Assembly: GCF_013391475.1 (NCBI RefSeq)
Contig: NZ_JACBAZ010000004.1
Location: 248,001 to 312,000, forward strand
Source: Oceaniferula marina
Lineage (GTDB): Bacteria > Verrucomicrobiota > Verrucomicrobiia > Verrucomicrobiales > Akkermansiaceae
Direction: 5' to 3'
DNA length: 64,000 bases
Numbering within the stretch: the stretch's first letter is position 1; every line of letters starts with the position of its first letter. The notes under the pieces are model-generated. The model ran no database searches and was not told the origin of the DNA. It worked only from the letters and a program-made list of their open reading frames with translations. Made by a program: the position numbers and the translations under genes. Below, one piece after another: positions 33,440-53,438 of this stretch.

Positions 33440-33725
33440 ATTGTCCACAGCCCTAGTACGCTACTATGTTTGTAAGGAACATAGCTTACCCACTTATAAC
33501 TCAAGCATGTTCCCAGCAACCACTCGGCAGCCCGTGATCATATCATGATTGGAGCAAAATCTGGCTCTCCCAGATTCCATGAGAGCACATCGCCCCACTG
33601 CCTCAATAGCGGGACACTCAATGTGTTAGATCGCTTAATAGTCTGTAATCTTACCACATTCAGCCAACCCTCAATTCGCCGTTGAAAAAAGCACCTGCTT
33701 ATTGGATTTCTCAACCCGCATTTCC
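33440..33725. other. Intergenic region upstream of the sulfatase cluster
   Basis: No gene supported. It holds an inverted repeat CTATGTT/AACATAG (33464-33484, 7-nt gap). A regulator site for the sulfatase genes could lie here, but no promoter pair was convincing. Confidence 0.4.
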
Positions 33726-35249
33726 ATGAAAACCATCCTCATCACTCTCCTTCTGCTCCCCGCATTGATCCATGCTCAAACATCCACAACGGAAAAACCC
33801 AACATCATCCTCATCCTCGCTGATGACGTCGGCTACGGAGACCTCGGATGTTACGGAGCCAGCAAGATCAAAACCCCCAACCTCGACCAACTAGCCAAGC
33901 AGGGAGTCCGCATGATCGATGGTTATGCCTCGGCTGCCGTCTGCACCCCAACCCGATTCGCCATGCTCACCGGCAAGTATGCCTGGAGACAACGAGGGAC
34001 CGGAATCCTCCCGGGAGACGCGGGCCTCAGCATCAAACCCGGAACCGTCACGCTGCCAGGGCTGATGAGAAATGCCGGCTACACCACCGCAGTTGTCGGC
34101 AAGTGGCACCTCGGCCTAGGCACAGGCAAAACAAAATACCAAGGTGAAATCAAACCCGGCCCGTTGGAAATCGGATTCGACCATTGTTTTATTTTCCCCG
34201 CCACCAATGACCGGGTTCCTACCATTTACATCGAAGACCACCACATCGTTGGTGAAGACCCCGACGATCCTATTCTGGTCAATTACCGTAAACAAGTTGG
34301 CAATGAACCCACCGGCCGGAAGAATCCCGAACAGCTCGACCTGAAAGTCCGCCGTCACCCCGACCACCACGAGGGAACCATTGTCCACGGCGTCAGCCGG
34401 ATCGGCTACATGTCCGGCAATCAAAAAGCACGCTGGAAAGACGCCGACCTCACCGAAACATTCACCAGAAAAGCTATTTCGTTTATTGAAGAAAATAAGG
34501 ACAAGCCGTTTTTCCTCTACGTCGCCAGCCACACCGCCCACGAACCCTGCGTCCCCAACAAACGATTCAAAGGTAGTAGCCAAGCAGGAGCCCGCGGCGA
34601 CACCATTCAAGAACTCGACTGGCAGGTTGGTCAGATTATGACAGCCCTCGACCGCCTCGATCTCAGCGACAACACCCTGGTCATTTTCTCCAGTGACAAT
34701 GGCTCGGATTGGCCCGTAAAGCGCTTCGCCTACCTCTACGAGGATGAAGCGATCATGAGCGAACATAAAGCAAATGCCCCCCTCAGAGCTGGTAAAGGTG
34801 ACCCTTATGAAGGAGCGACGCGTGTCCCGTTCATTGCCCGCTGGCCCAAAGCCATCAAGGCTGGTAGCGAATCCAAGGAAGTCGTCTGCCTGGTCGACAT
34901 GCAAGCGACACTGGCGGCGATCACCGGTACCGCCCTACCGAAACATGCCGGTCCGGACTCGTTCAATATGCTGCCGGCATTTCTCGGCCAAGGCAAAGGC
35001 CGCAGCCACCTGGTCCTACAACACAACCGAGGGCACGGAAATTTGGTTATCCGTAAGGGGGACTGGAAGCTGAACCCCAGAAACAACGGCAAACACGAAC
35101 TCTACCACCTCGGCCGTGACATCAGCGAGACGAGCAACGTAGCGGACCAACATCCCGAAGTGGTCAAGGAAATGCTGAACCTGCTCAGCAACATCAAAAA
35201 ATCAAAAGAAACCCGCTATATGACGTCTTCCTCCGACATTTCAGGATAA
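33726..35249 (+). CDS. Secreted sulfatase (family S1), first of cluster
   Basis: The 507-residue protein has a signal peptide (TILITLLLLPALIHAQ) and the S1 fold: metal-binding ILADDVGYGDLG (about 32-43), the formylglycine motif CTPTRFAMLTGK (Cys73), GKWHLG, HTAHEP and SSDNGS with a metal-binding Asp-Asn. Sulfatases hydrolyse sulfate esters of glycans; C-x-P-S/T-R requires maturation by a formylglycine-generating enzyme or anaerobic maturase, neither of which is in the window. ATG 33726 is chosen over TTG 33702, which would precede the signal peptide. Substrate is not evident; the locus context suggests an algal sulfated polysaccharide. Confidence 0.93.
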   Translation: MKTILITLLLLPALIHAQTSTTEKPNIILILADDVGYGDLGCYGASKIKTPNLDQLAKQGVRMIDGYASAAVCTPTRFAMLTGKYAWRQRGTGILPGDAGLSIKPGTVTLPGLMRNAGYTTAVVGKWHLGLGTGKTKYQGEIKPGPLEIGFDHCFIFPATNDRVPTIYIEDHHIVGEDPDDPILVNYRKQVGNEPTGRKNPEQLDLKVRRHPDHHEGTIVHGVSRIGYMSGNQKARWKDADLTETFTRKAISFIEENKDKPFFLYVASHTAHEPCVPNKRFKGSSQAGARGDTIQELDWQVGQIMTALDRLDLSDNTLVIFSSDNGSDWPVKRFAYLYEDEAIMSEHKANAPLRAGKGDPYEGATRVPFIARWPKAIKAGSESKEVVCLVDMQATLAAITGTALPKHAGPDSFNMLPAFLGQGKGRSHLVLQHNRGHGNLVIRKGDWKLNPRNNGKHELYHLGRDISETSNVADQHPEVVKEMLNLLSNIKKSKETRYMTSSSDISG

Positions 35250-35471
35250 ATATGGCATGGTGGTTGTATTGCCACATCGTGTAGCTCACCTTCTGGTTGT
35301 TTTCCATGTTCTAGTTGATTGATGCTTTGAGCGGCACCAACCATTCCTAGCCAATGGAAGAATTCTGTATAAGTAACACACTTGGACTGATCCAGCCAAA
35401 GCCGTGGGCTTTCCTACTCAGCAATAACGAATCACGGGAGCTGATAGAGCCACATAAAATATCGCCAACAG

Positions 35472-37919
35472 ATGAAACAAGAAAAATCATATCACCGTCA
35501 GACATCCAGAGGCAACCTGAGTTTGCTTCTATCGATCATTTTTATCCTGTCATGCTCAACCGAACCGACCTTGGCTTCGGAAAAGATCGACAACAACACC
35601 AAGCGTCCGTTACCAGTCTTCATTATAGCCGGACAGTCCAATGCTGTTCGCCTGGGGTCGATAATACCCGACCCAAACAAGAAAAATCCGATTGGTTGTG
35701 ATATCCACACGTATCTCAACACCTGCATTCTCAAGTCCAACGTCGCAGAAAAACGACACCAACAGGTGGTGACCATTCCTGCAAAATCATCGGTTCGCGG
35801 TGCCGGAGAAGGCATGGCGAGGGAACTCGCCACCAGGTATCCGGACGGCTTTGGTGTTATTCGTTACGCCATCTGCGGATCCAGCCTGCACAACGATTGG
35901 AAACCCGATGAAAAGAACGGGTACTACCAACAATATTTCGAACCGTTTATCGCCCAAGGCATGAAGGCATTGGAAAAACAAAGCGGACGTAAAGCTGAGA
36001 TCAAAGCTGTCTTCTGGCATCAGGGAGAATCCAACTCCCACTCGTTGAAAACAGTCAATGATCACGGCAAGTTACTACCTATCATCATCCACAAATTCCA
36101 CACCCGTTATAATAATGTTCCGTTTATTCTTGGGGAAATCCGAGAGTTTACAAACAAACCCAATCACGCAGCCTTGAACGCCCAAATGCGCAAAATCGCA
36201 GCAGCTTCTCCCTTTGTTGACATTATTTCCTCCCGTGATGCAGAAGGTCAAACACCTAGCAACGTCCACTTCTCCTCACGCGGATGCGCACAAATGGCGG
36301 CTCGTTACGTAACGGCCTGGGAATCCATCAATAACAAACAAGTAAAAACACACAAATCCACCGCCGCACCCAGCAAAAAAAAGCCGAACATCATCATTAT
36401 TCTTGCCGATGACCTCGGTTACGGAGATTTAAAAAGCTACAACAAAGAAGCTAAGATCAACTCCCCCAACCTCAACAAGCTCGCTGACACCGGTATCAGA
36501 TTCACAAACGCCCATACCAGTTCATCCGTATGTAGTCCCAGCAGGTACTCCCTCTTGACTGGAAGATACAACTGGAGAAGCCGTCTGAAACAATACGTGA
36601 CCGGATCTTTCAGTCACCCGATCATCGAACACGATCGCATCACGATCGCAAGCTTCTTGAAAAATCAAAACTACCAAACCGCCCTAGTGGGCAAATGGCA
36701 CCTGGGTATGGGATGGCGCAACCAACAAAACCTGCTGGTCTACGCCAAAAATGAACTGGGTGATGCCATCGACAAGCTGGCAATCGATCCAAGCAAGGAA
36801 ATTAATGGACCGCTCGAACATGGCTTCGATTACTTTTTTGGCCTGGCCAGCTCGTTGAACATGCCCCCCTACTGCTACATCCGGAACAAGCATGTTGTAG
36901 GAGAGCTTGACACCACCATGCAATGTTGGGGAACAACAGGATACGCCAACAAAAATTTCGAATTCCAAAGCGTAATGGATGAATTGACCAATGAAGCAAC
37001 GCGCTACATCAAAACAGCCAGCAAAAAAACGAATCCGTTTTTTCTTCTCTTCTCACTAACAGCACCACACACACCGGTGGTTCCGGCAGAAAGGTTCACG
37101 GGCTATGGAGGAGTGGCCAAGTCCAAATACGCCGATTTCATCTACCAAATTGACGACTCAGTGGGGCAACTTATGAGCACCTTGAAAAACCAAGGGGTCC
37201 AGGAAGACACCTTGATCATCTTTCTAGCCGATAACGGCTACGCATGGAAGGCAGCGAACCCGGGACGTCTAGCAAAGGTAGGACACAACCCCGCTGGTCC
37301 ACTCAGAGGAACAAAGGGAGACATTTTCGAAGGTGGTCACCGGGTACCATCCATCATCAACTGGGAAGGCACAGTGCAACCACAAGTCAATGACAAGCTG
37401 GCATGCATAACTGATTTGTTTGCTACCATTGCTGACTTGGCAGATTACGACTTCCCCGACAGCGCCGGAGAAGACAGCATCAGCATGTTACCATACTTAC
37501 ACGGTGAGACCAAAAGATTAAGGCACGACCTGGTCAGCCATTCTGTGGTCGGAAAATTCTCGTTCACAAACGCAGACGGCTACAAGGCCATATTTGCCAG
37601 GGGGTCAGGTGGCTGGGGTGACCGATTGGCCAAAGACATGAATTTACCCAAATTCCAACTTTACAACCTTGATGAGGACATCGCTGAAACCCGTAATCTT
37701 TACCCAATCCAAAAGGAATTATTTGAAAGCATGAGAATACAGCTCGCCGACTACATCCTGGACGGACGAAGCACACCTGGAAAAGTACAGAAAAACCATG
37801 ATGACATTGTCATATTCAAAGGATCCGATGCAGTGCTAGAAAGAGCGATCAACCGAGCAAACCCCGAAAAAAATAAAAAAGCTCACTTCATCTCTACCAG
37901 CGAAGACAAAAAAAAATAA
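35472..37919 (+). CDS. Bifunctional SGNH/SASA-type esterase fused to a sulfatase
   Basis: The 815-residue protein has a signal sequence with a lipobox-like end (IIFILSC, Cys28). Residues about 45-285 are a SASA/SGNH carbohydrate-esterase domain: FIIAGQSNAVRLG holds the serine, VFWHQGESNS block III and NVHFSSRG the histidine. A Lys-rich linker leads to an S1 sulfatase (about 308-770): IIILADDLGYGDL, formylglycine motif CSPSRYSLLTGR (Cys354), GKWHLGMGW, LTAPHTP, LADNGY. The enzyme would remove acetyl and sulfate groups from the same glycan, as an outer-layer lipoprotein if the lipobox is used. It is 1 bp from the next gene, hence coupled. Composition is more A+T-rich than neighbouring core genes. 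Confidence 0.9.
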   Translation: MKQEKSYHRQTSRGNLSLLLSIIFILSCSTEPTLASEKIDNNTKRPLPVFIIAGQSNAVRLGSIIPDPNKKNPIGCDIHTYLNTCILKSNVAEKRHQQVVTIPAKSSVRGAGEGMARELATRYPDGFGVIRYAICGSSLHNDWKPDEKNGYYQQYFEPFIAQGMKALEKQSGRKAEIKAVFWHQGESNSHSLKTVNDHGKLLPIIIHKFHTRYNNVPFILGEIREFTNKPNHAALNAQMRKIAAASPFVDIISSRDAEGQTPSNVHFSSRGCAQMAARYVTAWESINNKQVKTHKSTAAPSKKKPNIIIILADDLGYGDLKSYNKEAKINSPNLNKLADTGIRFTNAHTSSSVCSPSRYSLLTGRYNWRSRLKQYVTGSFSHPIIEHDRITIASFLKNQNYQTALVGKWHLGMGWRNQQNLLVYAKNELGDAIDKLAIDPSKEINGPLEHGFDYFFGLASSLNMPPYCYIRNKHVVGELDTTMQCWGTTGYANKNFEFQSVMDELTNEATRYIKTASKKTNPFFLLFSLTAPHTPVVPAERFTGYGGVAKSKYADFIYQIDDSVGQLMSTLKNQGVQEDTLIIFLADNGYAWKAANPGRLAKVGHNPAGPLRGTKGDIFEGGHRVPSIINWEGTVQPQVNDKLACITDLFATIADLADYDFPDSAGEDSISMLPYLHGETKRLRHDLVSHSVVGKFSFTNADGYKAIFARGSGGWGDRLAKDMNLPKFQLYNLDEDIAETRNLYPIQKELFESMRIQLADYILDGRSTPGKVQKNHDDIVIFKGSDAVLERAINRANPEKNKKAHFISTSEDKKK

Positions 37920-37920
37920 G

Positions 37921-40398
37921 ATGAACAATCCATTCAAAGTAACCTACCTGCTTCTGTTCCTCGGCATCCTGCCCATATCCGCAGAACCAGCCTCGAAAGA
38001 TCACGACTTTATTCTGGTTGAACAGGGGTCAACGGATGCTGTCATCGTGGTCGATGCCGACCAGCAAGGATGTCCTCACGATGCGGCTAAACAATTGGCT
38101 GCTTACATTCGCAGAATGAGTGGAGTGTCACTTCCCATCAAGCGGGTTTCTTCAAAAGACAAAGAAACCATCAAAAAACTACTTACACAAAAGCTGGTTC
38201 TTCTGGGGAATTCCGCCCTGACACGCAAACTCGGCATCGATAGCCACGACATCGGTACTGACGGATATAGAATCCGGGTGACCCCAAAGGTACTCGCCAT
38301 CATCGGACGAGACAACAACAAGGTCGACTGGAGCCAGACTTCCTGTCCCGTCGAATCCGGAACCTGGCACGGGGTCTTTGCGCTGTTAAGAGAGCTTGGA
38401 GTGCGCACTTTTTTCGACAAAGAAGAGCTGGATGTCATCCCGAGATTAACGACCATCTCGGTGCCCAGTGGCGACCAGAAAAACGCCCCCTATTTTCCAT
38501 TCCGCTGGGCCGGAAAGGGGCACAAGTCATGGGGATATAAGGTTGGCTTTGGAGGCACCCATGACCCCTGGCCCTCGAGACACTCGTTTGGCAGACCCCA
38601 ATGGTTCAGCGATGCCTATCCTATTGTGGTCGACGGCAAGCATGTCCCCATGAACTGGGACAAGCGCTACATGAAAACGCACCCCGAATGGTTCATCACC
38701 GATCGAAGCGGCAAGCGCCGCCCGTTCATCCGTTTTAATGCACCGGGAGTCAAAGAACAAATCATCAAGGATGCCTCCGCTTGGTATGCACTCGGTCAGG
38801 ACTACTACACACTCATCCAGAACGATGGCAATATCAGGGATACTGGCAGTTACGCCCGGGAAAACATCGACCCGAGCCTTGGATATTTCGGATACGCAAG
38901 CCCTCTGGTTATCAACCCGCTAGTCGACGTTGCGCATGCCATTGAAATACAACACCCGGATAAAAAGGTGACCCTTGGAGCCTATCATAACTACTCCCGA
39001 CCACCCCGTGACCTGCACTCCCTGCCGCGCAATACCGCCATCATGGTCAACCGACACCGACTGGCCAATGTGATCGACTATTGTGAGCGAGACAATAAAA
39101 TGCTACTGAATGAATGGCTCGCCCTCAACCCAGCCGAACTCTATCTATGGGAATACTATTGTTATAATATGGTGAGAGTCAACCGGGGAAACCGCTACAC
39201 CTTGATTCCCCGTTTCCTTCCAAACACCATTGCCAATGATGTCAAGTGGCTGGCGGAAACCCGAAAAAAACATCCGAATTTCAATGGCGAGTGGCTGTTT
39301 CTGGAATGGCGTAGGGACGGAATGAATAAATGGTGGTTCTTCCCCAACGCTTACATCACCGCGCGCCTATTCTGGGATCCAACCCAACCCGTAGACAAAC
39401 TCACCTATGACTTCTATGCAAAGGCCTTCGGACCAGCCAAAGACCAAATGCAGGCATTCTATGAGCTCTGTGAAAAGACATGGACCACCGGCTTCCCCCG
39501 GCAACTAGCTAACAATCCGGCACCAGCAACCGGCAACGAGCAAATCGAGGCCGCCAAAGCTTTGGGGCATCACTTCCAGGAAATGCACTTCACCAGATCA
39601 GACTTCGAGCAGATATGGGACAAGGAAGTAATGAATCAACTCAGCGCACACTTGGAAAAAGCATCCCAGCTCGCAAAAGAGAGCGACTGCCAGGCCCGCG
39701 TCGAATTTGTCCGCCGTGGTTTTGAATGTTTCAAAAAAGGCGGCTATGCCTTTGATTCAGACACTTTAACCCTGACCATTGATGAAGGAGTCGTAACCGG
39801 AATCATCGACAAAACAAGCGATAAAAGCTATGCATTCCAAAGTACGGCCTATGATATATCTCCGCTCGTGATATTAGGAATCAAGGGACAAACGGGACTG
39901 TGCAAACCACTGGGCATGCATTTCGATCAAAAACGCAAGATCATACGCCTCACTTACCCTGGGGCCAACAACGCCGAGCTCAAACTGGCGGTCATGGAAA
40001 AACCGAGCCATATCGAGTTCGAAGTCATCTCTCTGAACGCCAAAGGTTGTGAGGTCGAATTCATCCAGTGGGGTGGGTTTAATTTAACATCGAACATGCA
40101 GAGGATTCCGAATAACAAACATGCGGCTTCTGATGGAAAATTCATGCTTGGCATTCTACCGCTGGATCCTTCCACAACAACGGGGCGCATGCCCAGGTCC
40201 GGGATCAAGCGCAATGCAACATGGGATCATGGTTTCACACTTAGTGGCAAGCACCGCTATCTCTCCGCCTACTCAAAACCTCGTAGCAGCCCCAAGGGAC
40301 CAAGCTTTATCGGTGCAAAAATCGCATGTTATGGTTGCACCCCCTCCGGTTTCAAACAGCTCATCAACCGGATAGACAGCTCACGTCAAGACCCCTGA
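37921..40398 (+). CDS. Secreted DUF4838-type protein, putative glycan-acting enzyme
   Basis: The 825-residue protein has a signal peptide (about 1-21). Residues about 35-170 resemble the N-terminal alpha-glucuronidase/GH20-like accessory domain (AAKQLAAYIRRMSGVSLPI, GTDGYRIRVTP, LLRELGVRTFFDKEELDVIP), and residues about 190-520 match the DUF4838 barrel found beside such domains (FPFRWAGKGH, NEWLALNPAELYLWEYYCYN). The C-terminal region (about 620-820) is beta-rich. The family is uncharacterised biochemically; a glycoside hydrolase role is inferred from the fold and from the upstream esterase-sulfatase, with which it is translationally coupled (1-bp gap). Its 3' end overlaps the opposite-strand sulfatase by 13 bases. 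Confidence 0.8.
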   Translation: MNNPFKVTYLLLFLGILPISAEPASKDHDFILVEQGSTDAVIVVDADQQGCPHDAAKQLAAYIRRMSGVSLPIKRVSSKDKETIKKLLTQKLVLLGNSALTRKLGIDSHDIGTDGYRIRVTPKVLAIIGRDNNKVDWSQTSCPVESGTWHGVFALLRELGVRTFFDKEELDVIPRLTTISVPSGDQKNAPYFPFRWAGKGHKSWGYKVGFGGTHDPWPSRHSFGRPQWFSDAYPIVVDGKHVPMNWDKRYMKTHPEWFITDRSGKRRPFIRFNAPGVKEQIIKDASAWYALGQDYYTLIQNDGNIRDTGSYARENIDPSLGYFGYASPLVINPLVDVAHAIEIQHPDKKVTLGAYHNYSRPPRDLHSLPRNTAIMVNRHRLANVIDYCERDNKMLLNEWLALNPAELYLWEYYCYNMVRVNRGNRYTLIPRFLPNTIANDVKWLAETRKKHPNFNGEWLFLEWRRDGMNKWWFFPNAYITARLFWDPTQPVDKLTYDFYAKAFGPAKDQMQAFYELCEKTWTTGFPRQLANNPAPATGNEQIEAAKALGHHFQEMHFTRSDFEQIWDKEVMNQLSAHLEKASQLAKESDCQARVEFVRRGFECFKKGGYAFDSDTLTLTIDEGVVTGIIDKTSDKSYAFQSTAYDISPLVILGIKGQTGLCKPLGMHFDQKRKIIRLTYPGANNAELKLAVMEKPSHIEFEVISLNAKGCEVEFIQWGGFNLTSNMQRIPNNKHAASDGKFMLGILPLDPSTTTGRMPRSGIKRNATWDHGFTLSGKHRYLSAYSKPRSSPKGPSFIGAKIACYGCTPSGFKQLINRIDSSRQDP

Positions 40399-41807
40399 TA
40401 CATCGAGGCGTCATAGTCCGGAGCGTGGATCTGCTTGCGCCAAACATCCATCAGACGCTGAAGTTCCTCGGTTTTCTCCGGCATACTACGGGACACATCC
40501 TTGGTTTCACCGAGATCCGATTTCAGATTGTAGAGTTCATAGCGCTGAGCTTGCTTCCCCGGGGCCTCAAGGAACTTGATCAGCTTCCAGTCCCCTTTGC
40601 GCACGACCTGTGAAGGAACCCGAAGTCTGTTGTTCTGATAATGGACAGGAAGAGGATAACATAGCCAATGCAGTGCATCGCGGGCTAATCCGGCATCGGG
40701 GTTGCGCAACAAATTCGTCAAATCCAATCCGTCCACTTCCTTGTTATGGACCGTGTCCCCCTTCGCTCCGGCCATACGCAGAATCGTCGGATAAAAGTCA
40801 TGTCCAATCACCGGTGTCGGGCAAACACGACCGGCAGGAGTCACGCCGGGCCAGCGGACATAACACGGAACCCGGTCACCGCCTTCATAGGGTGTGGCTT
40901 TCCCCTGCCGCAAGGGGCCGTTGTGCGTAGCCTGCATCAGTCCCCCGTTATCGCTAAAGAAGACCACAATCGTATTCTGCTCGATCCCAAGGTCTTTCAC
41001 AGCCTGCAAAATGCGACCGACACTATCATCCAAATGAGACACCAAACCCGCGTAACTGGCATTTCGGTGAGTGCTTTTTCCTGTGAGCTTATTTTCAAAA
41101 TAACGCTGCTTTACCTTGCTCGCCTCAATCGGAGTATGCACCGCATAGTAACATAGGTTAAGATAGAAAGGCTTGTCCTTGTGATCCCGCATAAACCCAA
41201 GCACTTTATCCGTTAGTCGATCGGTCAAATGGTCCCCCGGTTTGGAGTCATCAAGGTCGGGCACGTTGAATTTTTCATCATGTAAAATGCTATTCGGGTC
41301 CTGATCTTTGAACGGGTAGTGGAAGCTACCGGGCATGCCGGCACCATTGCTAGCGATGGTAAAATCAAAGCCTTGATCCTCGGGCCGCTTGCCATACCCC
41401 CCCAGGTGCCATTTACCGGCATGACAGGTCACATAACCAACCCGCTTCAAAGCCTCCGCGACCGTCACCTCTCCCAAATCCATGGACGCCGTCCCATTGT
41501 TCACACAAGCATGGCGCGCGGGATACTTGCCAGTCATCAATGCCAGACGACTCGGCGCACATGTGGGATGTGAGGCATACGCATGTGAAAAACTCATCCC
41601 CTCACGCGCCAGCCTATTCAAATGAGGTGTCTCATGGAAGCTGTTATCCGGTCCCGACATATCGGCATAACCAAAATCATCAGCCAGCAAAAAAATGATA
41701 TTGGGTCGCTCCATTCCCACCACAGGCAAACCAAGCATGACAACCAAGAAGCTAAAAAAAACAAGCTTCCACATTCTTATACGAGAACGATGTCTCAACA
41801 CATTCAT
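40386..41807 (-). CDS. Secreted sulfatase (family S1), opposite strand
   Basis: The 473-residue protein has a signal peptide (WKLVFFSFLVVMLGLPVVG), ILLADD-type metal site FLLADDFGYADMSG, formylglycine motif CAPSRLALMTGK (Cys83), GKWHLGGYG, YAVHTPIEA and FFSDNGGL. It is closest in style to the A/N-acetyl-galactosamine or fucoidan-type S1 enzymes, but subfamily cannot be fixed by eye. ATG 41807 is used; the frame remains open upstream to 41888 but without signal-peptide character. It is convergent with the DUF4838 gene and divergent from the AraC gene, so it is transcribed separately from the other two sulfatases. Confidence 0.92.
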   Translation of the reverse strand: MNVLRHRSRIRMWKLVFFSFLVVMLGLPVVGMERPNIIFLLADDFGYADMSGPDNSFHETPHLNRLAREGMSFSHAYASHPTCAPSRLALMTGKYPARHACVNNGTASMDLGEVTVAEALKRVGYVTCHAGKWHLGGYGKRPEDQGFDFTIASNGAGMPGSFHYPFKDQDPNSILHDEKFNVPDLDDSKPGDHLTDRLTDKVLGFMRDHKDKPFYLNLCYYAVHTPIEASKVKQRYFENKLTGKSTHRNASYAGLVSHLDDSVGRILQAVKDLGIEQNTIVVFFSDNGGLMQATHNGPLRQGKATPYEGGDRVPCYVRWPGVTPAGRVCPTPVIGHDFYPTILRMAGAKGDTVHNKEVDGLDLTNLLRNPDAGLARDALHWLCYPLPVHYQNNRLRVPSQVVRKGDWKLIKFLEAPGKQAQRYELYNLKSDLGETKDVSRSMPEKTEELQRLMDVWRKQIHAPDYDASMYQGS

Positions 41808-42113
41808 TATTGCTAATCTTCCCGTCTCCGTCATTTCACAAAAAGGCATGTTTACTTCACATGAAAAAGCCTTTTCCAAGGTGCACATCTAAGGCGTTTC
41901 ATTATCCAAGAGTCCAGCAAAACATCAGCCCTCTGAAAGAATCTCCTCATGAGTCTCTTACTTTACGGCGCAACCAACAGCAGCTTTCAACCAGCACTTG
42001 TCCGAATCAACTGAATAATGGACATATTCTACTGCTTATGCAACTTTGTATCAGACATCAGGAGAGGTCCTCACTATCGGTACCCAAATACGCACAAACG
42101 CCCAGTCTCACCT

Positions 42114-43013
42114 ATGAATCAACATATCCCCACACCCTACCCCTTTGAATCCGCCTTGAGACTCAGCGTCGGACAGGGAAAGGTCAAACCCATCAGTGGT
42201 GAAACCGGTGAGTCTCCACATCGCAGAAGAACTTATCGCCCTAGCGGCACGCCGGACTGGCACATCATGGTGGTTCTCGAAGGTTGCTTTACCGTCTATC
42301 CTGATGCTGAAGAATCCTTTAGCCTTGAACCCAACGAAGCGGTGCTCATCCCTCCACATATGAAGCAGGACACCGCTTTGGACGACCAATTCTCAGAGGG
42401 GTCTTATTTCTGGGCTCACTTCCACCCGGAAGTATCGATGATGCCCTTCCTTGAGTGGCCAAAAACAAGTATTGGTCCGGGTTTCCTGAGCTGGAAAAAG
42501 AACAATCTGCTGATCCCTTACATTCGATCTGCATGCTACCGGTGTTCAGATTACTTTGATTCCGATTTCTCCCGTCGGCGCTCACTGGCATTACTAACAC
42601 TCGAAGAAATACTCCGTCTCATCTATCAAGTGAATCCGACCTCAAGCTTGGATGGCCTCGATGATCGTGTCGCCACCGCCTTACAGTATATCGCCACCAA
42701 CATCCAATCCCCGATCAATGCCAAATCCATAGCTGGCGCCGTGGGGCTTTCAGCATCACGATTTTCCGATATTTTCACCCGCAATATGCATTGTGGTGTA
42801 ATGGAATTTGTTGAACGCCAGCGCCTCAGCAAAGCGAGAAATCTACTGGCGCAAACCCAACTCCCGATCGCCGTTATCGCCGAAAATTGCGGATTCTCCT
42901 CGTCATATTACTTTTCGAAAAGGTTCAATAAGCACCATCAAATCAGCCCCTCGGCATACCGTCAGTCCGCTACCGAATCCACACCTCCATCAGAACCCAA
43001 GCCTTCGGCTTAA
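42114..43013 (+). CDS. AraC-family transcriptional regulator of the sulfatase locus
   Basis: The 299-residue protein has an N-terminal cupin-like domain (about 15-130; WHIMVVLEGCFTVYPDA, PNEAVLIPPHMKQD) and a C-terminal double helix-turn-helix (about 185-285; INAKSIAGAVGLSASRFSDIF and NCGFSSSYYFSKRFNKHHQISP). It is divergent from the sulfatase at 40386, and the ~300 bp between them probably holds its operator. ATG 42114 opens the conserved part; the frame is open from 42018 but that stretch is unlike a protein N-terminus. A role as local activator is inferred from position. Confidence 0.85.
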   Translation: MNQHIPTPYPFESALRLSVGQGKVKPISGETGESPHRRRTYRPSGTPDWHIMVVLEGCFTVYPDAEESFSLEPNEAVLIPPHMKQDTALDDQFSEGSYFWAHFHPEVSMMPFLEWPKTSIGPGFLSWKKNNLLIPYIRSACYRCSDYFDSDFSRRRSLALLTLEEILRLIYQVNPTSSLDGLDDRVATALQYIATNIQSPINAKSIAGAVGLSASRFSDIFTRNMHCGVMEFVERQRLSKARNLLAQTQLPIAVIAENCGFSSSYYFSKRFNKHHQISPSAYRQSATESTPPSEPKPSA

Positions 43014-43100: not shown

Positions 43101-43318
43101 AAAAAGCAAAATTGCTCCGCCCCCTCCCCCTTCGGATCAATGATAGCCAATCACTCAGAAGCGACCGCTTCGATAGTCGTTGCTTCTGATGAGGGGGGCT
43201 TCACCAGAAGCAGTCGAATTATTTCTGCTAGAAGGCCAGGGCGATGTTGTACTTTCTTCAAACAACGCCTCGCGCTTGTTCTACTTTTTCGCCCCCTGGC
43301 CACGCCCCCGTAAATGCG
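43101..43318. other. Intergenic region, no gene supported
   Basis: Between repeat A and the phosphorylase terminator. It holds imperfect GAAGC-rich inverted segments (43157-43240) but no frame, promoter or RNA that I can support. Confidence 0.4.
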
Positions 43319-43353
43319 AAAAAAGCCGGACACCCTGATGGTGCCCGGCTTGA
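43319..43353 (-). terminator. Rho-independent terminator of the phosphorylase gene
   Basis: On the minus strand AAGCCGGGCACC/GGTGTCCGGCTT (one bulge-like mismatch, 5-nt loop) is followed by TTTTTT; 30 bp after the stop codon. Confidence 0.88.
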
Positions 43354-43383: not shown

Positions 43384-45039
43384 TTACTTGTACACCTTGG
43401 TGTAGTATTCGTCTGCCATCCGACCGGAATCAAAGAATGGCACCACATCATTCATGCTGTTGTGCACAATTTTCCACCAATCATCTCCGCCGCTGTAATA
43501 AGCTGGCAGAACCTTGGTTTCCATCAATTGATAGAAGCCCAGTCGGTCATGTTCATCACGAGCATCGTCCGAAAGCGTGGGGGATGCTTCTGGGATAATA
43601 AAGGAGTTCTCACCATCCTTGGCAAACTCACAAACCCAACCATCATAGGTGGAAACATTCACGCTACCATTCATGGCGGCAGTCATACCGGAGGTTCCGG
43701 ATGCCTCACGTGTCACGATTGGGTTGTTCAGCCAAATATCGGAGCCATCCTTGAGAAGCTTGGACAAGGCCAACTCATAACCAACAAGAATCGTTGCAGA
43801 AGCATACTTCTGGGTAATGTGGAAAATCTTATTGAAGACATCGATGGCTCCAAAATCTTTCGGGAACGGCTTGCCAGCCCAGATAACCTGGACGGGTCGG
43901 TCGGCATTACGAAGAAGGGCTTCGAACTGCTCGATGTCACGAGTAATCAAATCAGCACGTTTGTATCCGGCAAAGCGACGTGCCCAGACGATGGTTAATA
44001 CATCCGGATCCATCAATCGTCCCGTCTGGTCGGCCACCTCTTTGAACAGTCTGACTTTGAGCTCGCGCTTACGTGCAGCCAAAGCTTTCAGATCTCCGGC
44101 GAGTCGGGCAGCTTCCAGCTTTTCATCCACCCAGTATTTTTTATTCTGGGCATTGGTCACGTGATCAATTTCACAAATCCCCTCGGCGTGTTGCCACATC
44201 CCCCGGGCAACCTCACCATGAAGCTTGGAGACCGCATTGGACTTGTGACTCATCCGCAGAGCTGCCAGCGAATGGCTGAACTCGTCACCGTGCACACCAC
44301 TCAATTGATAGGCTTCGTCGCGAGGGATATTGCCAAAGAAGGTAAACTTGTAGAGCAAATCAAAACTCGACTTCTCATTACCAGCTTCCACCGGAGTGTG
44401 CGTGGTAAAGACAAAACGCTTTTTCACCTCTTCCAGTGAACGCGTCTTATCATAGACATGGAATGCTGCGGACAAGGCGTGAGCCTCATTCAAATGCCAC
44501 ACATCAGGGTCGACGCCCAAATGTTCAAGTAAGGTAGCGCCACCCACACCGAGCAGAATATACTGGGCGATCCGGGTGAGAAAATCCGAATCGTAGAGTT
44601 TGTGGGAAATCGTGCGGGACATGTAATCATTTTCCTCGATGTCCGTGGTCAACAAGAACATCGGGGCCGATCCGAAGGTATCAGCGGGCAAATACATAAC
44701 CTTCACCCAGACATCCGCACCGTGGATCTTGATGGAATATTTGATTCCGGTGTCTTGCAGGAAATGATAAATCTTGCGGCGCTTTTGCACGGCCATGCCG
44801 CGGTCTTCACCACGTGCCTGAGCGTAATATCCATAGGACCACAAAATGCCGATCCCGATCAGGTTCTGCTTCAGGTCATAGGCGCTGCGCATATGGGATC
44901 CGGCAAGAAAGCCGAGTCCTCCGGAATAAATCTTCAATGCCTGATCAATCGCAAACTCAGAGCTAAAATAAACAACGCTCTTCTTGTATTTAGGATCGAT
45001 CTTATACGGATGTTGGTAGGGTTCAGGTAAAAAACTCAT
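43384..45039 (-). CDS. glgP: Alpha-glucan (glycogen) phosphorylase homologue lacking the PLP lysine
   Basis: The 551-residue protein aligns with the short bacterial alpha-glucan phosphorylase branch (GT35): YFSSEFAIDQALKIYSGGLGFLAGSH (about 24-49), HLNEAHA, FTTHTPVEAGNE, WARRFAGYKRADL and DIWLNNPIVTREASGTSGM. In glycogen phosphorylases the next residue is the lysine that binds PLP; here it is Thr453 (codon ACT), so the reading is EASGTSGMTAAMNG. A Lys-to-Thr change needs two base changes, so a sequencing error is unlikely. Without that lysine the normal phosphorolysis of glycogen should be lost or altered. A regulatory, glycan-binding or different catalytic role is possible. It stands alone with its own terminator. 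Confidence 0.85.
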   Translation of the reverse strand: MSFLPEPYQHPYKIDPKYKKSVVYFSSEFAIDQALKIYSGGLGFLAGSHMRSAYDLKQNLIGIGILWSYGYYAQARGEDRGMAVQKRRKIYHFLQDTGIKYSIKIHGADVWVKVMYLPADTFGSAPMFLLTTDIEENDYMSRTISHKLYDSDFLTRIAQYILLGVGGATLLEHLGVDPDVWHLNEAHALSAAFHVYDKTRSLEEVKKRFVFTTHTPVEAGNEKSSFDLLYKFTFFGNIPRDEAYQLSGVHGDEFSHSLAALRMSHKSNAVSKLHGEVARGMWQHAEGICEIDHVTNAQNKKYWVDEKLEAARLAGDLKALAARKRELKVRLFKEVADQTGRLMDPDVLTIVWARRFAGYKRADLITRDIEQFEALLRNADRPVQVIWAGKPFPKDFGAIDVFNKIFHITQKYASATILVGYELALSKLLKDGSDIWLNNPIVTREASGTSGMTAAMNGSVNVSTYDGWVCEFAKDGENSFIIPEASPTLSDDARDEHDRLGFYQLMETKVLPAYYSGGDDWWKIVHNSMNDVVPFFDSGRMADEYYTKVYK

Positions 45040-47312: not shown

Positions 47313-47398
47313 TCATCCGGGATACTCGTTGACCACGCAGTCATTTTCCTCAAAGCGTGACCCTTTTCTATTATCTCATGTGTTTTGCGGAATGGTAT
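47313..47398 (+). repeat. Dispersed intergenic repeat B, copy 1
   Basis: An 86-bp segment whose blocks TCATCCGG, CACGCAGT, TTTTCC and TGTTTTGCGGAATGGTAT are found at the same spacing at 58783-58868 (60 of 86 positions identical, no gaps). It ends on the stop codon of the minus-strand gene that follows. Confidence 0.7.
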
Positions 47399-48960
47399 TA
47401 TTCACGATCATCGACCCTGCGGCCTCCAGGAAGCAGGTCGAAGACCCCCTTGACCCCTTCGCCAATCACATCCGTTCCTTCACGAATGACATCCGTGCCG
47501 GTTTCCACCGCCTTGCTAGGCAGCTCGGTAGCCGTATCATGAGCAAATTTCAAAGCCATCTTTCCCGTTTCCGGTATCAACTCGAACATACGCTCGCCTG
47601 CCGCCGCGATCATCCGGTCACTCAAATCCTCCTTCGGGGCATCAGTCGTGCCCGTAATACGTAGCGGCGACCATAATAATCCATCACGACCACGTAAAAA
47701 CACCTTGGTTTCAGCACCTGGAATGTGAGCCAGAGTTCCCGGTGCAATGCCAACCTGAAACGTTCCATCCAATCGACCGTCAACCATTTTCAGACTACCT
47801 TCCAGACGAACCAAGCCCTCACTGGCCAACACAATATCGCTAAGTTCCAAACGATTACCCTCCCGCCAAAACTTCAGCCTGGCCTCGGAAAGGTTCAACC
47901 TGCGAAACCGCGGGGTGTTGGCATAAGCTGCGATCCGGTCCAAGACAGGCAATCCGGTCAAAATCCCATTCTTAAGCTCAAGTTCTCCAAGGCTCACCGG
48001 CCCATCCTTGCCTGATCGAACCTTGAACCGGGACTCCACCTGACCACTGATCTTACGCCTCCAGGAATCGGGAACCAACTCTTCGGCCTCCACACCAGCC
48101 AAGGTTCCATAAAACCCAAACTGCCGACCTTCCAGCTCACCTTCCAAGGTGAGCGTCCCTCTTCGGTAAACTTCCGACTTGGACTCGGTCAGATACCACC
48201 GGCCTCGCTTGTATTTTCCACGAGCCGAATCCAATGCCAAAGGCGAACCAAACCAAGGGCTTTCAATCCTGCCGCCACTCAAATTCCAATCATAGCTTCC
48301 CGGGGAGTGGCCACCATCGACACGCATTGCCATGTTTTGGGCATTCAAGCCACCACTAGAAGTTTTTAACCTCAAACCAAGATTCAAGATTTCTGCCGAC
48401 ATGAGTTCAGCCTTGTCGGGAAGCAAGCCACTGAGAAAGCCAGAACCTTTCGTCGCCTTTTCTGAAGAAACCTCATCGACTTCCTCATGGTTTGCTAGAT
48501 TACTCACCTCGCCCCGACCGCGCTCGGTCGCCAAATCCAAATCCAAGCGGTTCACCCGCAAATCAGAAATTTCCCACACCCCGCGCCGGACACCGGCAAG
48601 GCTCAACCGGGCTTGCATCCCCTCCGCTTCCATTTTCTGCAACAAACCACCGCTCTTGGCTTCCAGACCGGCAGTCCGCACATCCATCCCCTGCCATTCA
48701 AACAAGGCAAATTCGGTGTCGGCATCAATCACTGCACCCACGGATTCTCCGATAAAACGCCTGAAATCATCACTGTGCAAATACTTCTTCATCCAAGAAT
48801 ATAAGCCAAAGCCTGAAAGAATCGCAGTCACAGCAAGTATGGATCCAATGCGCAACGACCATTTCACCCATCCGGCCCCGGCCGTTTTACCGCCTCGCTT
48901 TGGCCCCCGACTCCCCTCTCCCCGGCTTGCAGCTTGCCGCCTTTGTGATCTTCTCGACAT
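47398..48960 (-). CDS. AsmA-like membrane-anchored protein
   Basis: The 520-residue protein has a basic N-terminus (SRRSQRRQAASRGEG), one membrane helix (about 34-56) and a long beta-rich extracytoplasmic region typical of AsmA/TamB-like proteins: repeats of the style LRVNRLDLDLATERG, LELKNGILTGLPVLDRIAAY, LRLEGSLKMVDGRLDGTFQVGI. The C-terminal part (about 440-510) is helical with VIREGTDVIGEGVKG. AsmA-like proteins are linked to outer-membrane lipid transport and assembly. No operon partner is evident. Its stop codon abuts repeat B. Confidence 0.72.
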   Translation of the reverse strand: MSRRSQRRQAASRGEGSRGPKRGGKTAGAGWVKWSLRIGSILAVTAILSGFGLYSWMKKYLHSDDFRRFIGESVGAVIDADTEFALFEWQGMDVRTAGLEAKSGGLLQKMEAEGMQARLSLAGVRRGVWEISDLRVNRLDLDLATERGRGEVSNLANHEEVDEVSSEKATKGSGFLSGLLPDKAELMSAEILNLGLRLKTSSGGLNAQNMAMRVDGGHSPGSYDWNLSGGRIESPWFGSPLALDSARGKYKRGRWYLTESKSEVYRRGTLTLEGELEGRQFGFYGTLAGVEAEELVPDSWRRKISGQVESRFKVRSGKDGPVSLGELELKNGILTGLPVLDRIAAYANTPRFRRLNLSEARLKFWREGNRLELSDIVLASEGLVRLEGSLKMVDGRLDGTFQVGIAPGTLAHIPGAETKVFLRGRDGLLWSPLRITGTTDAPKEDLSDRMIAAAGERMFELIPETGKMALKFAHDTATELPSKAVETGTDVIREGTDVIGEGVKGVFDLLPGGRRVDDRE

Positions 48961-51491: not shown

Positions 51492-53438
51492 ATGAAACGC
51501 CGCACGATCCTTCTTATCTCCAGCCTGACGCTGCCACTCTACGGGCAGGTCTACAACCCTGGCAACGGTGGGGGCAATACTGCTCGCCCAGCTGCCAATA
51601 ACAACAACGGTGACACCACCATCGTCCATAAGAAAAAGGAAAGCAAATCGCCCTACGGCAATGAGGTTCCCTTCATCGACCCCACCCAGGAAACCATCAC
51701 TCTGATGGGCCATACCTTCAATATTGGTGACAACCGCGCACTCGGTGGACAATTCGAATCCTACCTCGCCGACTCCCCCAATACCTCGAAGGCCGCCATC
51801 GAATACCGGGAAACCATCGATGCCATTCTCGACGCCGTCTCCCCACATACCAAGGGCGATATCCGCAGCAAGCTCCGCAACGGATTCCACATGCTGCCAA
51901 GAGCCGCCTCTTATCCTGGTGACGGCAGAATCTGCGATTCGCTCTCCAATGCCATCTACGCCGCCATGCTTTCAAAGGGCTCCGTGCAAAGCTCCAAAGA
52001 ATACATCGCCACCCTCGAAAAAGAAAAACGCCGTATCGCCCGAAACTTTGATATCAGCGCAGCTAAAATCGATCTCACCGACGACCAACAGAGCAAAGGC
52101 AAGCCAGGCCAGAAAAAAACAGGTAAACAGTCAACCCTCGCCAAGGCTGCTACATCCGCTCAATTGCAGGAAATCCAAAAACGCATCCTCGAAATCGAAG
52201 CTCTCAAAAAACTGCACCACGCCAAAGATGAGGTCAACATCGTCCAAGCCAAAATCCAGTATCAAGCACTGCTCGCCCAACTCTTCGTCCAGCGCCGGTT
52301 CGAACACGTCGTCATCGGCACCCGCTTCTACAACCTGATCTTCCGCGACGGAGACAGTAAAATGCGCCTCAAAAAAGGCTCGGACGTCTCCAAGTTCTTT
52401 GGAGAAGGGCTCGGTGTGGACCCCACGGTCACGGGCCTGGACTCAGCCGCCAACGAAGCAATCCGCAAGGTGAATTCACTGGTTACCGGCTTCAACAACC
52501 ACCTGAGCCACAAAGAACTACACAGTGCGTCCAAACGCCTGACCGAAGCCTTCGCTCTCGGCGAATTTATCCCATCGGTTCAAACCGTCCCCTCAGATCA
52601 GCGACGCCAAATCCTCGAATACGTGCGCGACGGCAACGCTCTGGTCAAGGCCATGGATGTTCATGACTACGCCGCTGCCAAAATTTATCTCGAGGCCTTG
52701 AAAAAACGCTCCACCGATTTCGACTCCACCAAGGCTGAAGGTGCCATCGCCGCCTACACCCGGGTCTCGGACGGCCATATCCGGGCAGCTAAAATCGCCC
52801 TCGGACAAAAAGATCAGGCAAAATTTGAGTCCGAACTCGAAAAAGCCACCCAGGTCTGGCCAACCAACCCGAAACTGAAGGAAATCGACACCTTACTCGA
52901 CACGTTCATCACCAAGGGAGATGCAGCCAACAACACCCTCAACGACTATGACCGCCTGCTCGGCGACAAAAACTACCGCGCCATCAAGGACCGCTACGTT
53001 GAGTTTGCCGCAACCATCGGTCAAACCAATGACGCCACTCGCACAGAAAGCCTGGCCGAAATCATGAATAGCCTCAAAGAGGTGCAAGAAGCCCGAAGCA
53101 AAGCCGAGTTCCTCGCCCAAAAAGGCCAAACCTACGCAGCATGGGAAATCCTCGAAGAAGCGAGGGTCAAATATTACGATGATCCACTGCTGCAACAACA
53201 AATCACCAGCATCACCGCAGAAGTTGCCGATTTCACTCGAGCTCTCGCCCGAGCTGAGAAATTCGAGAGCAATGACCTCACACCCCAAACCGGTTCTGCT
53301 CTCTCATGGTATTTGGAAGCCAAAAGCATCTACCCGGACAGTAAATTTGCCCAGGAGGGCATTGATCGCCTCGTCAATCGTGTCTTTGAAGAGGATGGTA
53401 ACGATAGCAGTATCGACGAAGAGCTTTCCTCCAACTAG
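51492..53438 (+). CDS. Large secreted helical/TPR-like protein, unknown function
   Basis: The 648-residue protein has a signal peptide (TILLISSLTLPLYG) and an Asn-rich stretch (about 25-45). The rest is mostly helical: a predicted coiled-coil segment near 215-260 (LQEIQKRILEIEALKKLHH) and TPR/HEAT-like helix pairs from about 370 to 630 (AKIYLEALKKRS, IALGQKDQAKFESELEKATQVWP, GQTYAAWEILEEARVKYY). Acidic tail DDSSIDEELSS. No enzyme motif. Such proteins often act as periplasmic scaffolds; that is inference. It is the third same-strand gene after the ABC transporter. Confidence 0.7.
   Translation: MKRRTILLISSLTLPLYGQVYNPGNGGGNTARPAANNNNGDTTIVHKKKESKSPYGNEVPFIDPTQETITLMGHTFNIGDNRALGGQFESYLADSPNTSKAAIEYRETIDAILDAVSPHTKGDIRSKLRNGFHMLPRAASYPGDGRICDSLSNAIYAAMLSKGSVQSSKEYIATLEKEKRRIARNFDISAAKIDLTDDQQSKGKPGQKKTGKQSTLAKAATSAQLQEIQKRILEIEALKKLHHAKDEVNIVQAKIQYQALLAQLFVQRRFEHVVIGTRFYNLIFRDGDSKMRLKKGSDVSKFFGEGLGVDPTVTGLDSAANEAIRKVNSLVTGFNNHLSHKELHSASKRLTEAFALGEFIPSVQTVPSDQRRQILEYVRDGNALVKAMDVHDYAAAKIYLEALKKRSTDFDSTKAEGAIAAYTRVSDGHIRAAKIALGQKDQAKFESELEKATQVWPTNPKLKEIDTLLDTFITKGDAANNTLNDYDRLLGDKNYRAIKDRYVEFAATIGQTNDATRTESLAEIMNSLKEVQEARSKAEFLAQKGQTYAAWEILEEARVKYYDDPLLQQQITSITAEVADFTRALARAEKFESNDLTPQTGSALSWYLEAKSIYPDSKFAQEGIDRLVNRVFEEDGNDSSIDEELSSN

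Follow-up and report, generated by a model that had tools for sequence, protein, structure and literature searches.

A GT35 alpha-glucan phosphorylase homologue of Oceaniferula marina belongs to a clade with threonine or serine in place of the PLP lysine

Glycogen phosphorylase is the textbook example of an enzyme for which PLP serves solely as a source of a phosphate group, and its need for the vitamin has long been a puzzle. Among GT35 proteins, the canonical group (TIGR02093) includes E. coli GlgP and MalP and the rabbit muscle enzyme, and the TIGR02094 group includes the phosphorylase of Segatella copri (9l6i) and the maltodextrin phosphorylases of the Thermococcales. In known phosphorylases the phosphate of PLP is catalytic, not the aldehyde, and K646 is the PLP lysine of E. 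coli MalP (PMC11046441). A nucleoside monophosphate has been proposed as the group whose place PLP took early in the history of GT35 (PMC11046441). Retaining phosphorylases exist in a family other than GT35 as well, namely the GT4 trehalose phosphorylases of Schizophyllum and Grifola, which provide a functional precedent but differ in family and substrate (PMC8950772).

The window, i.e., the whole stretch of 64,000 nucleotides of O. marina DNA that was analysed, encodes a protein that is homologous to the TIGR02094 proteins over its whole length and shares their motifs, as well as all mapped active-site residues but one. The gene, its conserved segments and the signal that follows it are located as given here.

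43384..45039, minus strand: GT35-like (TIGR02094) alpha-glucan phosphorylase homologue of 551 aa, with an ATG start and Pfam and NCBIfam matches
43681..43683, minus strand: codon 453, ACT (Thr), at the site of the PLP Schiff-base lysine by PDB alignments; Thr or Ser across the clade
43666..43707, minus strand: active-site stretch EASGTSGMTAAMNG, residues 445-458, with E445-T449 invariant
43957..43986, minus strand: WARRFAGYKR, residues 352-361, phosphate-binding residues, with R355, Y359, K360 and R361 invariant in three groups of proteins
44131..44157, minus strand: TNAQNKKYW, residues 295-303, with N296 and W303 invariant in 104/104 Thr/Ser proteins
44911..44925, minus strand: SGGLG glycine loop, residues 39-43, with G40-G43 invariant in all groups
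43317..43351, minus strand: probable rho-independent terminator just 3' of the gene, a 12-bp hairpin (43323-43351) and then six T (43317-43322)

The window protein is short, as it lacks the additional segments present in the 700-870-aa phosphorylases. It scores 434 bits against NCBIfam TIGR02094 (cut-off 191.7), merely 48 bits against the canonical TIGR02093 (cut-off 552.9), and 56.5 bits against Pfam PF00343 Phosphorylase (cut-off 27), which is its sole Pfam match at E <= 0.001; no GT4 or Glycos_transf_1 domain match was found for it. With the canonical enzymes it shares the GT-B fold and the residues that form the sites for glucose and phosphate, but it is much shorter, lacks the PLP lysine and has no equivalent of Tyr90 (A30). 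An earlier note on this DNA had read Thr453, encoded by ACT, as a replacement of the PLP lysine, and this is borne out by the open reading frame, the codon and the PDB alignments, in which T453 stands opposite the Lys of 'GTGNMK' in E. coli MalP and of 'GTSGEK' in 9l6i; we take the position to be that of Lys680 in the rabbit enzyme. The window protein is a GT35 homologue by descent, but the PLP lysine, the one defining feature of PLP phosphorylases, is missing from it, and it should therefore not be classed among the PLP-dependent glycogen phosphorylases.

The terminator hairpin has a folding energy of -22.8 kcal/mol (z -6.8) by RNA folding, although the listing of the consensus scan does not include it. 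In the window the gene has as neighbours an AraC-type regulator, a sulfatase, an alpha/beta hydrolase and a NUDIX hydrolase, and no link to glycogen was seen among their Pfam and NCBIfam profile matches. Because a strong terminator follows the gene and its neighbours show no such link, it probably stands alone here as a single-gene unit. A cluster of polysaccharide type (33702-41888) lies beside the AraC regulator (42018-43013), and two long open frames elsewhere in the window have no Pfam or NCBIfam match.

33702-35249 and 40386-41888: sulfatases of the polysaccharide-type cluster
35472-37919: fusion of a SASA esterase and a sulfatase, same cluster
37921-40398: DUF4838 protein, same cluster
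47398-48960, minus strand, and 51492-53438, plus strand: the two long open frames, of 520 and 648 aa

A scan of 84,980 species genomes was run with the patterns IWAGKP[YF]P and EASGTSGM, which omit the residue in question. Its 80 best relatives of the window protein, 52-69% identical, carry Thr (70) or Ser (10) and no other residue, and they span Verrucomicrobiota (including Akkermansia), Bacteroidota, Campylobacterota and Pseudomonadota; within the same GTDB family, full-length relatives (59-85% identity) also all have Thr or Ser. Across all collected loci the split is clean, those above 500 bits being of Thr/Ser type and those below 300 bits of Lys type. The suggestion that the change marks a whole subfamily thus proved correct, as a single branch, with a support of 100, parts Lys from Thr/Ser in a tree of 141 proteins; 52/52 clade members match TIGR02094. 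Conservation of Lys-to-Thr across a clade, which the earlier note proposed to test, holds in that lysine is gone throughout, but the residue is Thr or Ser; the relative in G009, 85% identical to the window protein, has Ser. A mis-read base, which the earlier note had named as a possible refutation, is ruled out by the Thr or Ser of same-genus relatives and of 80/80 of the nearest relatives elsewhere, a pattern that chance is far from explaining. Similarly, an error of sequencing or assembly was rejected because independent isolates and MAGs agree on the residue, and a decaying pseudogene because the frame is open at full length, identity in the family is 59-85% and the catalytic residues are invariant.

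Inside the clade, the 141-protein tree has 15 Thr-Ser changes, at least 11 of them on well-supported branches, and none to another residue; 12 such changes were counted in 79 rows not chosen by residue. Threonine has about six amino-acid neighbours one step away. Since the switches are many and Ser is the sole alternative among these neighbours, the pattern suggests that the hydroxyl at position 453 is probably under selection, rather than lysine having merely been lost. The clade has duplicated, as a few genomes hold two Thr/Ser-type genes each: G053 (L113, L136), G436 (L284, L290) and G527 (L276, L289). Thr/Ser-like pattern matches in G197, G390, G457 and G445 were discarded, as they show no homology and are not relatives. 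Among the Lys-type proteins, the PLP lysine of a Bacteroidota group of 680-800 aa (L323-L345) is preceded by Gln or Glu instead of Met (EASGTSG[QE]K) and often followed by His instead of Asn. In the open-access literature, a coverage outside which most subscription journals lie, neither a description of a GT35 group without the lysine nor an activity measurement for any Thr/Ser member was found; the Thr/Ser group is apparently large and undescribed.

Active-site columns were compared among 104 Thr/Ser proteins, 37 Lys-type TIGR02094 proteins and 25 canonical phosphorylases. The Schiff-base position is Lys in 37/37 and 25/25 of the latter two, and Thr or Ser throughout the clade. Common to all three groups are G40-G43, N184, H187, H214, N296, R355, Y359, K360, R361, K390, E445-T449 (E445, A446, S447, G448, T449), D466, G467 and E471, and invariant in the 104 Thr/Ser proteins are G41, N296, R355, Y359, K360, E445, S447, G448, T449 and W303. 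The shared columns presumably include Gly135, His377, Asn484, Arg569, Tyr573, Lys574, Glu672, Ser674 and Thr676 of the rabbit enzyme; we take G41 to be Gly135, a phosphate contact, N296 to be Asn484, R355, Y359 and K360 to be Arg569, Tyr573 and Lys574, E445 to be Glu672, and T449 to be Thr676, at the PLP phosphate. W303 and Y421, also kept within the clade, presumably correspond to Trp491, lining the PLP pocket, and to Tyr648. The remainder of the active site is therefore preserved, as the earlier note had it, every other mapped catalytic residue being invariant in 104 members. To judge from the alignments, the anion site for the substrate phosphate and the PLP phosphate appears whole, and the tether alone gone. 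The statement of the earlier note that the usual use of PLP is closed to the protein applies to the covalent Schiff base, but the absence of PLP does not follow, because in known phosphorylases it is the phosphate of PLP that is catalytic, and its binding residues are kept.

While the TIGR02094 phosphorylases have 700-870 aa and Lys, the clade has about 550 aa, Thr or Ser, and special residues at positions 67, 221, 297, 298, 391 and 430 (W67, N221, A297, Q298, P391 and K430 in the window protein). K430, invariant in the clade and missing in Lys-type proteins, is its sole new conserved lysine. Residues 297-298 (44146-44151, minus strand) are Ala/Ser-Gln in the clade, in contrast to Gly-Ile/Val in nearly all GT35 and GT5 proteins, and this replacement, beside the glucose-binding Asn, possibly alters the position of the substrate or the reaction.

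An AlphaFold2 model derived from 52 clade members (mean pLDDT 91.5) has the predicted GT-B phosphorylase fold. The best fold match of this model is the S. copri phosphorylase 9l6i (Z 34.4, rmsd 2.0 over 533 residues), and GT5 synthases with ADP (2qzs, Z 32.0; 6gne, Z 31.9) come level with E. coli MalP (Z 32.6). In a joint alignment the PLP-lysine position is Tyr in GT5 GlgA (10/10), so that the lysine is missing in both GlgA and the clade, and G41, N296, R355, K360 and E445 are common to the two; on the other hand, GlgA has Leu at T449, and the window protein has the phosphorylase-type EASGTSGM with T449. A tree including GlgA gives the Thr/Ser clade a support of 100/100 and leaves the base of GT35 without resolved order, the GlgA branch being too long; rooting GT35 with GlgA as a means of dating Thr/Ser against Lys was abandoned for the same long branch. 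Both an origin of the clade before PLP capture and one after it are therefore possible.

The genome of the window (97% complete) has a single GT35 locus, so that the second, canonical GlgP that the earlier note proposed to look for is not among its genes. In 25/25 genomes with a Thr/Ser gene there are no loci of other GT35 kinds, G053 having its two Thr/Ser copies. All 25 also match the GlgA domain model and the branching-enzyme model (GlgB or a related GH13), the latter over the curated cut-off in 15. Of the two counterparts in the window's own genome, the one like GlgA falls short of the TIGR02095 cut-off of 328 with 280 bits, and the one like GlgB is an enzyme of CBM48-GH13 type. Among 288 genomes of Verrucomicrobiota, a true Thr/Ser motif occurs in 29, every one of which belongs to the same family as the window, and a Lys motif in 243, with one true overlap, G302, which has a canonical 827-aa GlgP together with a Thr/Ser gene. 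Among 247 genomes of Bacteroidota, the phylum of Chryseobacterium, the counts are 25 true Thr/Ser and 109 Lys, with no true overlap. The two types are thus nearly mutually exclusive, and the split repeats in two phyla, in counts that share ancestry and partly reflect one inherited event per lineage rather than independent events. Two near-complete genomes of the window's family, G024 and G291, have no GT35 gene at all.

In Campylobacterota the Thr/Ser gene sits in glycogen clusters and often adjoins phosphoglucomutase (TIGR01132), directly so in L107, L088 and L093.

L107: GalT-like gene, GlgA, ROK kinase, second GlgA, GlgB, phosphoglucomutase, then the Thr/Ser gene
L102: GlgA, GlgB, Thr/Ser gene, GlgB-like GH13
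L093: GlgB, phosphoglucomutase, Thr/Ser gene
L088: phosphoglucomutase adjoining the Thr/Ser gene
L097: GlgB, glucose-6-phosphate isomerase, Thr/Ser gene
L078: GH57, ROK kinase, Thr/Ser gene, phosphofructokinase
L109: GAPDH, Thr/Ser gene, phosphoglycerate kinase

This is the setting expected of an enzyme that frees glucose-1-phosphate from glycogen. Outside Campylobacterota, the window included, the gene has no glycogen cluster around it, and no shared neighbourhood was found in Bacteroidota and Verrucomicrobiota; the commonest neighbour family (17/79 loci) is lipoprotein-like and not evidently linked to glycogen. The Campylobacterota clusters repeatedly contain a GalT-like gene (L107:1454-2476, L078:8078-9097 and L109:10640-11656), identified by profile in L107 and by similar N-terminal sequence alone in L078 and L109; it could act on nucleotide-glucose, which would matter if the Thr/Ser enzyme makes NDP-glucose.

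We give an even chance to the proposal that the Thr/Ser protein is a working intracellular alpha-1,4-glucan phosphorylase that yields glucose-1-phosphate without Schiff-base PLP, another phosphate group occupying the anion site. The proposal draws on the clade-wide Thr or Ser with its hydroxyl kept, the retention of the other site residues, the presence of one GT35 kind only, the near mutual exclusion, and the Campylobacterota clusters with glycogen genes and phosphoglucomutase. In this scheme, a clade of short GT35 enzymes would have lost the covalent PLP anchor, glucan and phosphate would give glucose-1-phosphate by phosphorolysis, and phosphoglucomutase would pass this on to glycolysis. The acid-base job of the PLP phosphate would be taken over by an untethered phosphate group, whether a second phosphate, the phosphate of a nucleotide or that of a PLP molecule bound only loosely, which R355, K360, T449 and G41 would hold, perhaps helped by the Thr/Ser hydroxyl. 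Such an enzyme would resemble the GT4 trehalose phosphorylases, which are retaining and are not known to use PLP, and the mechanism is possible given this precedent and the catalytic role of the phosphate in PLP. Several points count against a phosphorylase: every GT35 enzyme characterised so far is considered to require PLP; A297/Q298, in place of the near-universal Gly-Ile/Val beside the glucose site, may reflect a different reaction; and the glycogen cluster is missing outside Campylobacterota, kinship partly lies behind the exclusion, and G302 has both types.

The main rival is a nucleotide-dependent alpha-glucan glucosyltransferase, whose PLP site would take the nucleotide part of an NDP, for making glucan from NDP-glucose or, in reverse, NDP-glucose from glucan and NDP. 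The lysine position, Tyr in GlgA, presumably corresponds in GT4 to the ribose-contacting second Glu of the EX7E motif, and the window protein is near GlgA in size; the predicted model fits GlgA with ADP about as well as MalP, and a nucleoside monophosphate is the proposed forerunner of PLP in the proto-GT35 enzyme (PMC11046441). In contrast, all 25 genomes already have a match to a GlgA-type synthase, the KxGG lysine with which GlgA binds the ADP phosphate is missing (Y38-S39-G40-G41), the TIGR02095 score is only 22.8 bits (cut-off 328.45), and its partners in the clusters, phosphoglucomutase and genes of glycolysis, suit an enzyme that releases glucose-1-phosphate. The fold fits both readings, but the neighbouring genes and the occurrence of GlgA favour phosphorolysis, and a nucleotide-using transferase seems to us doubtful. 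A pseudoenzyme that binds glucan or regulates without catalysis, which would be in keeping with the loss of a residue that known GT35 enzymes are considered to need, is improbable, given that R355, K360, E445, T449, N296 and H214, needless for a binder, do not vary among the 104 sequences, which come from four phyla, that the site has Thr or Ser exclusively and never a random residue, and that the genome has no GT35 gene of another kind. Where the earlier note had allowed for another activity, a glucan binder or a regulator, the evidence would thus favour a working enzyme of glycogen metabolism over the last two. An ordinary phosphorylase with PLP anchored by a different lysine would account for the retention of PLP-pocket residues such as W303 and Y421 and for the invariance of K430, but K430 is a poor candidate for the anchor because, in the model, it lies at the far end of helix 423-432, which starts at the pocket, some 10-13 A of helix away. 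No further clade-specific conserved lysine is present, and we consider this reading very improbable.

A bolder and more tentative view is that the clade is a GT35 lineage free of PLP that uses the PLP site for a free nucleotide or phosphate, having either survived from the time before PLP or returned to that state; if true, this lineage would connect the nucleotide-sugar transferases to the PLP phosphorylases as their missing link. A widespread clade without the PLP lysine, with the site otherwise intact and apparently alone in the GlgP role in its hosts, makes the idea on the origin of PLP testable. Databases name the proteins of the clade 'alpha-glucan family phosphorylase', so that in many gut, soil and marine bacteria, among them relatives of Akkermansia, the annotated step of glycogen breakdown depends on an enzyme of putative chemistry. 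A branch of the textbook vitamin-B6 enzyme seems to work without the bound vitamin.
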